Below are positions 38,954 through 41,916 of a stretch of 41,916 nucleotides of DNA, piece after piece. This DNA is from Deltaproteobacteria bacterium. Lineage in GTDB: Bacteria > Desulfobacterota > GWC2-55-46 > UBA9637. The number at the start of each line of letters is the position of its first letter. Position 1 is the first letter of the stretch. Under the pieces are notes generated by a model, which did not search any database, was not told the origin of the DNA, and was given only the letters and a program-made list of their open reading frames with translations. The translations under genes were made by a program, and so were the position numbers. The stretch covers positions 1 through 41,916 of the forward strand of contig JACQEJ010000118.1 in assembly GCA_016200645.1 (NCBI GenBank), written 5' to 3'.

Positions 38954-39373
38954 GTGAAAAAATGGAGCCTTGCCAACAATAACAGAGAAAAGATTATCTC
39001 TGAGATAAACATTACGCCATTGACCGATGTTATGCTAGTCCTTCTTGTGATTTTTATGGTAACAACGCCGCTTTTAGTCATGCAATCCTTTAAAATCAAG
39101 CTGCCCAAGGCGGTTTCGGCGGAGGCTGAGCCAGGCAAGGGGATAACGCTTTCCATTGCAACAGGAGGGATGATTTATCTGAACAATAAGGCGGTTAAAA
39201 TGGAAGGGCTTTTTGATTCAATAAAATCCGAGCTTAAAACTGCATCCGACAGAACCGTAATAATAAAGGCGGATAAGGATATCCCGCATGGCATGGTTGT
39301 AAAAGTCTTGGATACGGCAAAACGCGCCGGAGCAGAGAAGTTGTCTATCGCAACAGAGCCGGAAAAGAAATAG
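38954..39373 (+). CDS. ExbD/TolR family protein (GTG start)
   Basis: 'ISEINITPLTDVMLVLLVIFMVTTPLL'. Confidence 0.9.
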   Translation: MKKWSLANNNREKIISEINITPLTDVMLVLLVIFMVTTPLLVMQSFKIKLPKAVSAEAEPGKGITLSIATGGMIYLNNKAVKMEGLFDSIKSELKTASDRTVIIKADKDIPHGMVVKVLDTAKRAGAEKLSIATEPEKK

Positions 39374-39394: not shown

Positions 39395-40507
39395 ATGAAA
39401 ATTTCTTTAAATAGCATCAGTAAAAACTGGAGAGGTAGCGTTCTTCGGGAAGAATCAACACTTCATCAGCTTTCTCCTTATTTAGGTAAGATGAAATCTT
39501 CAATGGCGAATTCGCTGGTTTCAGCGTTTACAAGCAAAGGTGATAATATATATGATCCATTCTGTGGATCGGGAACTATAGCTCTTGAATCGTGGGCGAG
39601 TGGGCGCAATATTATTGCAAATGATTTAAGTCCGTATGCGTTTACCCTTACACGAGCAAAGCTTTATCCCCACTATTCGATAGATGACACAAATGCTGAA
39701 ATTGAGGATATTGCTAAACAGGTATCTCTTTATATCAGCAAGGTAGATTTAAGACATATCCCTATGTGGGTGCGCTCCTACTTTCATCCCGAAACTCTAC
39801 GCGAGATTATTGCTTGGTTTCAAGTTCTTAAATTGAAGAAATCTTATTTTTTGTTGTCTTGCCTTCTTGGGATTCTTCATCACCAAAGACCGGGATTCTT
39901 ATCGTATCCATGTAGTCATACAGTGCCGTACAAGCGAGAAAAGAATTTTCCAAGGGAAGACTTCCCCGAGCTATACCAATATCGGCCGGTTCGAGAGCGA
40001 CTTGAAAAAAAGGTTGCGCGTGCATTAAAAAGAGTTCCTCATTTTGACAATGATTTAATTCGTATGTGTAATAGGTATGATGCTGCCAAACATATTCCGA
40101 AACAAAAGGTGAACGCTATTATTACAAGCCCACCGTATATGCGGCAGTTAGACTATGCAAGAGACAATCGGCTCCGCTTGTGGTTTTTGGGCGAACGGGA
40201 TTGGAAATCTCTTGACAGCGTTATATCACCAGCGGAAGCAGACTTCATTAGTCTTTTCAGGCGCTGTTTGAGTCAGTGGAAAAATGTCTTAATTCGCAGA
40301 GGATTGTGTGTCCTTGTGCTTGGAGATACACGAAGCCGGTTATATAACATGCTTCTGCCTGATGTTGTTGCTCATATTGCGACCAAAGAAGTTGGTGGTT
40401 ATTCCGTGTGTTGGAAGCATACCGAAGCGATTCCTAATGAACGACGTGTGCGCCGTGGTTGTTTTGGAAGCTTAACAGAAACTATTTTGGTATTACGGAA
40501 AAATTAA
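39395..40507 (+). CDS. DNA methyltransferase (TSPPY type, N4-cytosine/N6-adenine)
   Basis: motif I-like 'DPFCGSGTIALESWASGRNIIANDLSPYAFTLTRAKLYP'; motif IV 'NAIITSPPYMRQLDYARDNRLRLWFLG'. Confidence 0.85.
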   Translation: MKISLNSISKNWRGSVLREESTLHQLSPYLGKMKSSMANSLVSAFTSKGDNIYDPFCGSGTIALESWASGRNIIANDLSPYAFTLTRAKLYPHYSIDDTNAEIEDIAKQVSLYISKVDLRHIPMWVRSYFHPETLREIIAWFQVLKLKKSYFLLSCLLGILHHQRPGFLSYPCSHTVPYKREKNFPREDFPELYQYRPVRERLEKKVARALKRVPHFDNDLIRMCNRYDAAKHIPKQKVNAIITSPPYMRQLDYARDNRLRLWFLGERDWKSLDSVISPAEADFISLFRRCLSQWKNVLIRRGLCVLVLGDTRSRLYNMLLPDVVAHIATKEVGGYSVCWKHTEAIPNERRVRRGCFGSLTETILVLRKN

Positions 40508-41916
40508 ATGCAAAAAAATCTACCGGATAAAGAATTCTTTATTGGCAAGCCTTTGCCTGGCATGGAACATTATGTCATTGATGTGTATATAAATTCAGGT
40601 GGTAATGCACACATGTTTCGTGCATATTCATCTGCTTTGAATAATTATATGGCTTGCAAAATTATACCTAAAGCCAACTTGCCTATAAATAAATTAGGGC
40701 AGGATGCATGGTTTATCGAGCCACAAAAGGCTAACTCACTAAGGAACCATATGGTTGTTAAGTGTAACCATCATTTACTCTGGAAGGATGACACTAAAGG
40801 GATAGATTGTTTTGTGCTCTGCTATGAGTATGTTAAGGGTGAAAATTTAGCTGAGTATATCAAAAACAATAAGAAAGAAATATCAATCGAGTTTATATTA
40901 GATTTCTTGAAATCTGTATTAGAATTATTGATTGAAATGAAAGGGAAGGGAATCAAGCACGAAGATATGCATTCGAGGAATATATTGATCGAGTCACCGA
41001 ATGAATTCCAGATTAAGCCAAAAACGGCTTTTAGGGTTACAGATTTTGGCGTATGGCCGACAAGTGGTGATTTTTGGATAACAGATGATTATGAGCAACT
41101 CGCAATAACCTTGAAGGAATTGTTGGAATGTGTAAATTATAGTAGTGACGGCATAACTTCTAAGGAAAAATTTATTTTTAACTTTTTAGACAAGCAATTT
41201 AAAAGGCATCTTGTTGAGCACGATCCAATCAGAGATCCTATTGCGCGGCAACCTGAATTATTGTATAAAAAACTTGATAATCTTGATAAAGAATTCACGA
41301 GGTTAGAAAAGAATACTTTAAGTATTAAGCTTGTTAGCCCTTTTGATGGTTTGAGTTGCGAACAAATAAGCGAAGATAGTACGCTGAAGGCGCTTTATTC
41401 AGATAAATTCCTTGGTCTCGAGTATATACAACATCTAAACAATCTCATGCTAACCGGCCCTCGCGGTTGTGGCAAGAGCACTGTTTTTAAAAGTTTAAGT
41501 TTGCGTCATCGCGTTCTTGTTGATGATGATAAACCGGAAAATGTTAAGTATATAGGCATCTATTATAATTGCAATTCAGACCTTTATTTCGCCTTCCCAA
41601 GGTACCGACTTCCTGACGATAACGCTGCCTATGAGTTGCCACTTTATTACATAACTGCAACATTATTAATTGAAGTATTAGATACCATCAAGATTTGGGC
41701 AATGCGTCATTTTGAAAAGATATTTCTCGAAGTAGAACAGCGTGTTTCTAAAATGTTGTGGGAGGTGCTTGAGATTACACCACCTCAACAGCCAAATGCT
41801 AATAGCTTTATGACAATAATCGCATGGCTGGCGAATGAGAGAAAAAATGTTGCCGGCAAGTACAGGCTTTCTAATATACCTGATTACAATAAGGACAAAA
41901 CTTTTTTTAACCCTAG
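40508..41916 (+). CDS. protein kinase-like domain fused to P-loop ATPase (partial, runs off window)
   Basis: open frame with no stop from ATG 40508 to window end; 'YMACKIIP' (Lys), 'GIKHEDMHSRNILI' (HxDxxxxN), 'FRVTDFGVW' (DFG), 'LMLTGPRGCGKSTVFKSL' (Walker A); starts immediately after the methyltransferase TAA. Confidence 0.85.
   Translation, partial: MQKNLPDKEFFIGKPLPGMEHYVIDVYINSGGNAHMFRAYSSALNNYMACKIIPKANLPINKLGQDAWFIEPQKANSLRNHMVVKCNHHLLWKDDTKGIDCFVLCYEYVKGENLAEYIKNNKKEISIEFILDFLKSVLELLIEMKGKGIKHEDMHSRNILIESPNEFQIKPKTAFRVTDFGVWPTSGDFWITDDYEQLAITLKELLECVNYSSDGITSKEKFIFNFLDKQFKRHLVEHDPIRDPIARQPELLYKKLDNLDKEFTRLEKNTLSIKLVSPFDGLSCEQISEDSTLKALYSDKFLGLEYIQHLNNLMLTGPRGCGKSTVFKSLSLRHRVLVDDDKPENVKYIGIYYNCNSDLYFAFPRYRLPDDNAAYELPLYYITATLLIEVLDTIKIWAMRHFEKIFLEVEQRVSKMLWEVLEITPPQQPNANSFMTIIAWLANERKNVAGKYRLSNIPDYNKDKTFFNP

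Follow-up and report, generated by a model that had tools for sequence, protein, structure and literature searches.

A DNA methyltransferase–kinase–ATPase operon cut by a contig end belongs to a CARF-linked family and is a candidate anti-phage system

At the right end of the analysed stretch of DNA (the window: 41,916 nucleotides, the entire contig C169 of an assembly of 201 contigs), we identified the left part of an operon that almost certainly consists of three genes: an amino-group DNA methyltransferase (MTase), a fusion of a Ser/Thr protein kinase with an ORC-CDC6-like ATPase (STK::ORC), and a tandem-CARF protein. We consider it reasonably likely that the operon is a three-gene anti-phage system of the signalling type, gated by methylation. 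Such a system would join the marking of self and non-self by methylation with nucleotide sensing by CARF proteins, two lines of immunity that are usually treated apart, via a kinase fused to an ORC/CDC6-like ATPase.

The first two genes are seen in the window (Table 1). The stop codon of the MTase gene immediately precedes the start of the fusion gene (TAA then ATG, zero gap), and the frame from the ATG at 40508 stays open for 469 codons, reaching the last base of the contig, as the original prediction of an unlisted gene at this position had stated. The kinase landmarks named there are present (K51 in MACKIIP, H151-E-D153-MHSRN158 and D179FG), and the same chain carries Walker A (G317PRGCGKST). 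Residues 28–182 match the kinase family PF00069 and also PF07714 (3.5e-7), and residues 293–452 match the ORC-CDC6-like family PF24389, all above curated cut-offs; as the contig ends there, the PF24389 profile can be followed only up to position 177 of 571. Judged by these matches, the landmarks of both domains exceed chance. The catalytic motifs are conserved across homologues at 37–46% identity, the window fusion being 46% identical to its counterparts in Terriglobia (L064) and Bacteroidetes (L066) and 38% to that of Ca. Thiosymbion (L062). As the complete fusions of the last two are 826–836 aa long, the window ORF appears to be about 55% of a protein of ∼830 aa, cut by the contig end. The kinase Lys, the HxD Asp, the Asn and the DFG Asp are present in the window and in nearly all homologues, but kinase activity may not be universal among the fusions, since in the Ca. 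Thiosymbion member Arg replaces the kinase Lys and the alpha-C Glu is absent. In a structure model of a full-length homologue, the kinase half was good and matched PknB and GAK kinases, and the ORC ATPase half was poorly modelled (pTM 0.38).

Table 1. Features of the operon and its host flank in the window. Alignment A1 consists of three MTase sequences.
Feature	Coordinates	Strand	Evidence
exbD/tolR-like gene, host flank	38954..39373	+	orthologs 94% (G003) and 89% (G004) identical
370-aa amino-group DNA methyltransferase, operon gene 1	39395..40507	+	PF01555, 2.8e-13; 38–60% identity to orthologs heading the same operon
MTase motif I DPFCGSG, residues 54–60	39554..39574	+	invariant in alignment A1
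MTase catalytic motif IV SPPY, residues 245–248	40127..40138	+	invariant in alignment A1
STK::ORC-CDC6 fusion, N-terminal 469 codons of ∼830 aa	40508..41914	+	open to contig end; aa 1–469 align with L062 1–470 of 836 aa
Ser/Thr protein kinase domain, aa ∼20–185	40565..41062	+	PF00069, 3.7e-11
Kinase Lys	40658..40660	+	conserved in homologues
Kinase motif HEDMHSRN	40958..40981	+	conserved in homologues
Kinase motif DFG	41042..41050	+	conserved in homologues
ORC-CDC6-like region	41384..41914	+	PF24389, 1.3e-15, profile 16–177 of 571
Walker A GPRGCGKST, arginine within P-loop	41456..41482	+	11 of 12 aligned homologues have T-G-x-R-G-C-G-K

To find related loci, we scanned genomes with three aligned MTase homologues and also scanned viral contigs. 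We found nine, counting a Bradyrhizobium plasmid, in which kinase and ORC ATPase directly follow the MTase, and the MTase is retained beside its partner in several phyla. The partner is a fused STK::ORC protein in Spartobacteria (L059), Burkholderiales (L061), Ca. Thiosymbion, Terriglobia, Bacteroidetes and two IMG/VR contigs (L165 and L167); in Poribacteria (L060) the fusion is read in two overlapping frames, and on the Bradyrhizobium quebecense plasmid pBq66S1MBc (L054) kinase and ORC are split into two genes. The tightness of this link partly reflects the search route, as the MTase-based search supplied six of the nine loci; L165 and L167 were found via CARF and fusion alignments. Wherever the locus continues intact, the fusion is followed by a third gene encoding a CARF protein of ∼345 aa, and the intergenic gaps in the related operons are −17 to +9 bp. 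The operon with a DNA methyltransferase that had been predicted is therefore borne out by a gene order kept in related loci, but the predicted two-gene layout is not: complete relatives carry the tandem-CARF gene, and by comparison with them the layout in the window is an artefact that shows only the left portion of an operon with three genes. We infer the intact operon of the window genome from these relatives, its third gene being unseen in its own assembly (CARF profile A3 gave no match at E ≤ 1). Elsewhere, searches for close homologues gave only generic kinase matches among 97 relatives, only generic kinases in phage records and nothing in a single-protein scan of viral contigs. Among 399 genomes of the phylum of Ca. 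Thiosymbion, a sensitive search with A2 recovered that locus itself, one fused-type relative (G736) and kinase-only matches; as it gave no further trio, the trio appears to be rare.

The site at which the operon lies could be compared with two genomes of the same genus. In the window, the operon starts 21 bp past the stop of the exbD/tolR-like gene; in both sister genomes (G003 and G004), ppx/gppA directly follows exbD, giving an empty site, and from this comparison the window operon is an insertion at the exbD end. The GC content of the fusion ORF is 36.1% versus 44.7% across positions 1–39373, lower than in all 190 of 190 same-size windows to the left, in agreement with the AT-richness noted in the original prediction. 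Because the sister genomes show an empty site and the GC content of the ORF is low, horizontal acquisition is the best explanation for the operon. Viral contigs carry two of the complete relatives (L165 and L167), with the trio of L165 flanked by a minor tail protein gene on one side and a tape-measure gene on the other; one relative, the split one, is on a plasmid. An Rfam search found no match in the region, and promoter and terminator scans of it stayed near shuffle level. A few kilobases past ppx, both sister genomes carry restriction-modification-like genes (L148 and L149, from ORF starts only), which suggests that this part of their genomes is a variable region.

A contig end at this place could instead reflect a mutated, nonfunctional operon. 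Two relatives give grounds for this: the Terriglobia fusion is interrupted and ends at aa 746 shortly before its contig end (L064:10085–12325), with a C-terminal CARF piece near the end of another contig (L150:10086–10703), and the Poribacteria copy occupies the two overlapping frames mentioned above. Moreover, the remainder of the operon and ppx were both unfound in the window's own assembly, where a PF24389 search for the rest of the ATPase gave only chance P-loops and ppx only a weak partial match; one candidate from the PF24389 search (L018) was rejected as RarA-like. The window copy itself speaks against decay, with 469 stop-free codons, no kinase or Walker A residue lost and homology that continues to about 10 residues before the contig end, and an assembly gap with its break inside the insertion would be expected to leave out the flanking ppx as well. 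We regard a degenerate locus as improbable.

The MTase, which PADLOC matched to MTase_II, also occurs with other partners. Genes of the same family stand beside ParA-like ATPase and SIR2 genes in Pseudomonas, Dyella, a Salmonella plasmid and two IMG/VR contigs, and on a 91.9-kb viral contig (L178:6947–9839) an MTase 55% identical to that of the window is followed by a GmrSD_N protein (NsnA-like by PADLOC) and then by a HEPN-like gene. Trees of the two window genes disagree: in the MTase tree, window and L059 form a group (98/96), and a grouping of window, L064 and L066 is rejected (p-AU 3e-70), whereas the kinase–ATPase tree rejects window plus L059 (p-AU 5e-44); the groups compared were named after the trees had been seen. 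The trees indicate that the history of the MTase differs from that of its kinase–ATPase partner, and since several partner modules and this conflict point the same way, we regard the MTase as a self-marking cassette that can be exchanged and that SIR2 and GmrSD systems have in common with the operon. A defence role for the window operon is very probable because its MTase family pairs with ParA plus SIR2 and with GmrSD_N plus HEPN and because trios lie on phage contigs and the split one on a plasmid. The cassette in turn makes the operons with ParA+SIR2 and with GmrSD+HEPN candidates for modification-dependent defence. The loci with ParA-like ATPase, SIR2 and MTase (L063:6954–10101, L065:6922–10044, L056:7920–10979, L175:6920–9979 and L176:6926–9977) come in two gene orders and have the look of a SIR2 defence system, linked to methylation, that is as yet undescribed.

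The third gene of the relatives was characterised by profile and fold. Its protein matches the CARF6 models of PADLOC (1e-14), and fusion and CARF gene are colinear on the PADLOC model CARF_STK_AAA, residues 24–708 of the Ca. Thiosymbion fusion aligning with model positions 46–717 and residues 23–336 of the CARF gene product with 880–1182. Searched against PDB sequences, the CARF profile gave no match. For the AlphaFold2 model of the protein (pLDDT 76, pTM 0.83), the best PDB matches by Foldseek were Can1 (6sce, 1.5e-5), Cam1 and Csm6, with the SAVED proteins Cap5 and CalpL lower; the TM-scores were modest (0.27–0.43 on query) and the local matches confident. The motifs GFEDR, GSK(M/L)Q and STLDY are conserved, and on the predicted structure the third gene encodes a tandem CARF sensor. 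The operon shares this CARF/SAVED-like Rossmann sensor with the CARF effectors of type III CRISPR (Can1, Cam1 and Csm6) and the SAVED effectors of CBASS but, unlike them, has no fused nuclease, encodes neither Cas10 nor a CD-NTase, and pairs the sensor with an MTase and a kinase–ATPase. CARF proteins usually respond to nucleotide-making enzymes of the Cas10 or SMODS kind. The operon contains no ligand synthase, and neither Cas10 (Csm1 model) nor SMODS gave a match in the window's own genome, which weakens an explanation by type III CRISPR; the Csm1 model matched weakly in two other genomes only (G443 and G164), the metagenome-assembled genomes searched being incomplete.

The original prediction recognised no named system in the layout. 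None fits, but the nearest kin had been missed: Makarova et al. 2014 (PMC4012209) devote two sentences to a small family with the architecture Zn ribbon–kinase–AAA+ (with an arginine in the P-loop)–CARF–wHTH, suggest kinase-mediated signalling for it and, in these passages, make no mention of an MTase. PADLOC has a model for the same family (CARF6--CARF_STK_AAA, PDLC01925), and we found no functional report on it in the open-access literature. An MTase-linked version appears to be undescribed, although the 2020 CARF classification, Burroughs and Aravind 2020 and the MADS paper may mention the link. With this family the window shares the kinase domain and the AAA+ ATPase with the P-loop arginine, and the MTase-linked relatives share the CARF6-type sensor and the colinear order. 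The family has an N-terminal Zn ribbon where the window and its MTase-linked homologues begin straight at the kinase, and a C-terminal fused CARF where complete MTase-linked relatives have a separate downstream gene (off the contig in the window); identity between the two is 16–18% in the N-terminal part. By architecture, the window represents a sister branch of the single-chain family, lacking the Zn ribbon, with a separate CARF gene and with an MTase as the first gene. We recovered three single-chain Zn ribbon–kinase–ORC–CARF proteins (L045:1429–6313, L174:5283–10212 and L053:5590–11609), two of which (L045 and L053) open with a C..C...C..C segment; the single-chain relatives carry DLG where the window has DFG. 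In place of the DNA MTase, their gene 1 encodes a pyrimidine-nucleoside-phosphorylase-like protein at L045 (5e-17 to a solved structure) and L174 and a PUA-like calcineurin phosphoesterase at L053, partners that could act on the CARF ligand.

These other first genes bear on an alternative in which the CARF protein leads: a nucleotide ligand made during infection would make it activate the kinase–ATPase, and the MTase, instead of being the gate, would act as an effector or protect against something else. The single-chain relatives keep a fused CARF with a phosphorylase-like or phosphoesterase gene 1, so the MTase is not obligatory for the machine, and the CARF fold match agrees with such signalling. 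Yet the MTase comes first in nine of nine loci of the separate-CARF branch, most of them found through the MTase, its family elsewhere adjoins restriction or abortive modules, as a self-marking enzyme would, and the operon brings no enzyme to make a ligand. We hold CARF-led control to be rather unlikely, and prefer an MTase that marks self. The MTase-linked trio provides the kinase–AAA+–CARF family with a context that makes the gate testable.

BREX type 2 (Pgl) systems likewise bring together a DNA methyltransferase, a protein kinase and an ORC-Cdc6-type ATPase, with a core that lacks a classical restriction nuclease. The parallel drawn in the original prediction stands for this likeness of activities and fails in the parts: the MTase here is a 370-aa enzyme of PF01555 type and not a large one of PglX type, the kinase is fused to the ATPase, a CARF sensor is present, and PADLOC models for BREX components, PglZ and PglX included, matched nothing in the two window genes, the core trios or those flanks that were sampled (for PglW, see PMC12839542). 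The resemblance of the kinase, ATPase and MTase set to Pgl, together with the tight overlap of the three genes, would also suit a toxin–antitoxin-like arrangement in which the MTase or the kinase is toxic and its partners neutralise it. An ordinary MTase of this length, with conserved motifs and several unrelated partners, is unlike a dedicated toxin, however, and with PglZ and PglX unseen in the operon we see little chance of such an arrangement. MADS systems combine a methyltransferase, a protein kinase (MAD6) and an ATPase in about eight genes. The operon resembles them in its MTase with kinase and ATPase and differs in having three genes and a CARF protein. Its kinase matches MAD6 with 43 bits in the PADLOC scan and its ATPase is weakly similar to MAD8, but the former scores about the same as generic kinase families such as PD-T4-6, the NCBIfam score for MAD6 (25.3 bits) is far under the cut-off of 460, and PADLOC found no further mad genes in the trios and sampled flanks. 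A reduced member of BREX type 2 or MADS is, in our view, very improbable. The operon also differs from type II restriction-modification, as no cognate restriction endonuclease stands beside the MTase in the scanned proteins.

In the methylation-gated mechanism that we propose, the MTase would mark host DNA at its own site, and the AAA+ ATPase would engage unmarked invading DNA or respond to infection, turning on the fused kinase. The kinase would then phosphorylate host (or phage) proteins, so that growth or phage replication stops, and the CARF protein may gate or report the kinase step by binding a nucleotide ligand. For the gating of kinase signalling by methylation, taken by itself, we put the chances at about even. 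Scans of the window ORF and of trio proteins gave no nuclease domain, and an Mrr-like gene lies nearby only in Bradyrhizobium; with no recognisable nuclease among the core gene products, the operon probably acts by signalling, with dormancy or abortive infection as the result, and not by cutting DNA. More tentatively, and with the odds somewhat against it, the operon may be a stand-alone mobile system in which an ORC/CDC6-type ATPase reads unmodified DNA and fires a eukaryote-like kinase, with CARF nucleotide control outside CRISPR and CBASS and an MTase cassette shared with SIR2 and GmrSD operons.

ORC-CDC6-like ATPases also occur in other settings. The remaining PF24389 matches examined in the phylum (L047 and L050–L052) are STAND-like ATPases with TPR repeats and have no kinase. 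Two further kinase-less ORC-CDC6-like ATPases from the window's own phylum (L039:7501–10416 and L040:1119–3902) sit directly behind a PRTase-CE gene or a C5-cytosine methyltransferase, and on a viral contig a fused kinase–ORC protein (L168:5626–8196) lies near the transposase of a transposable phage.
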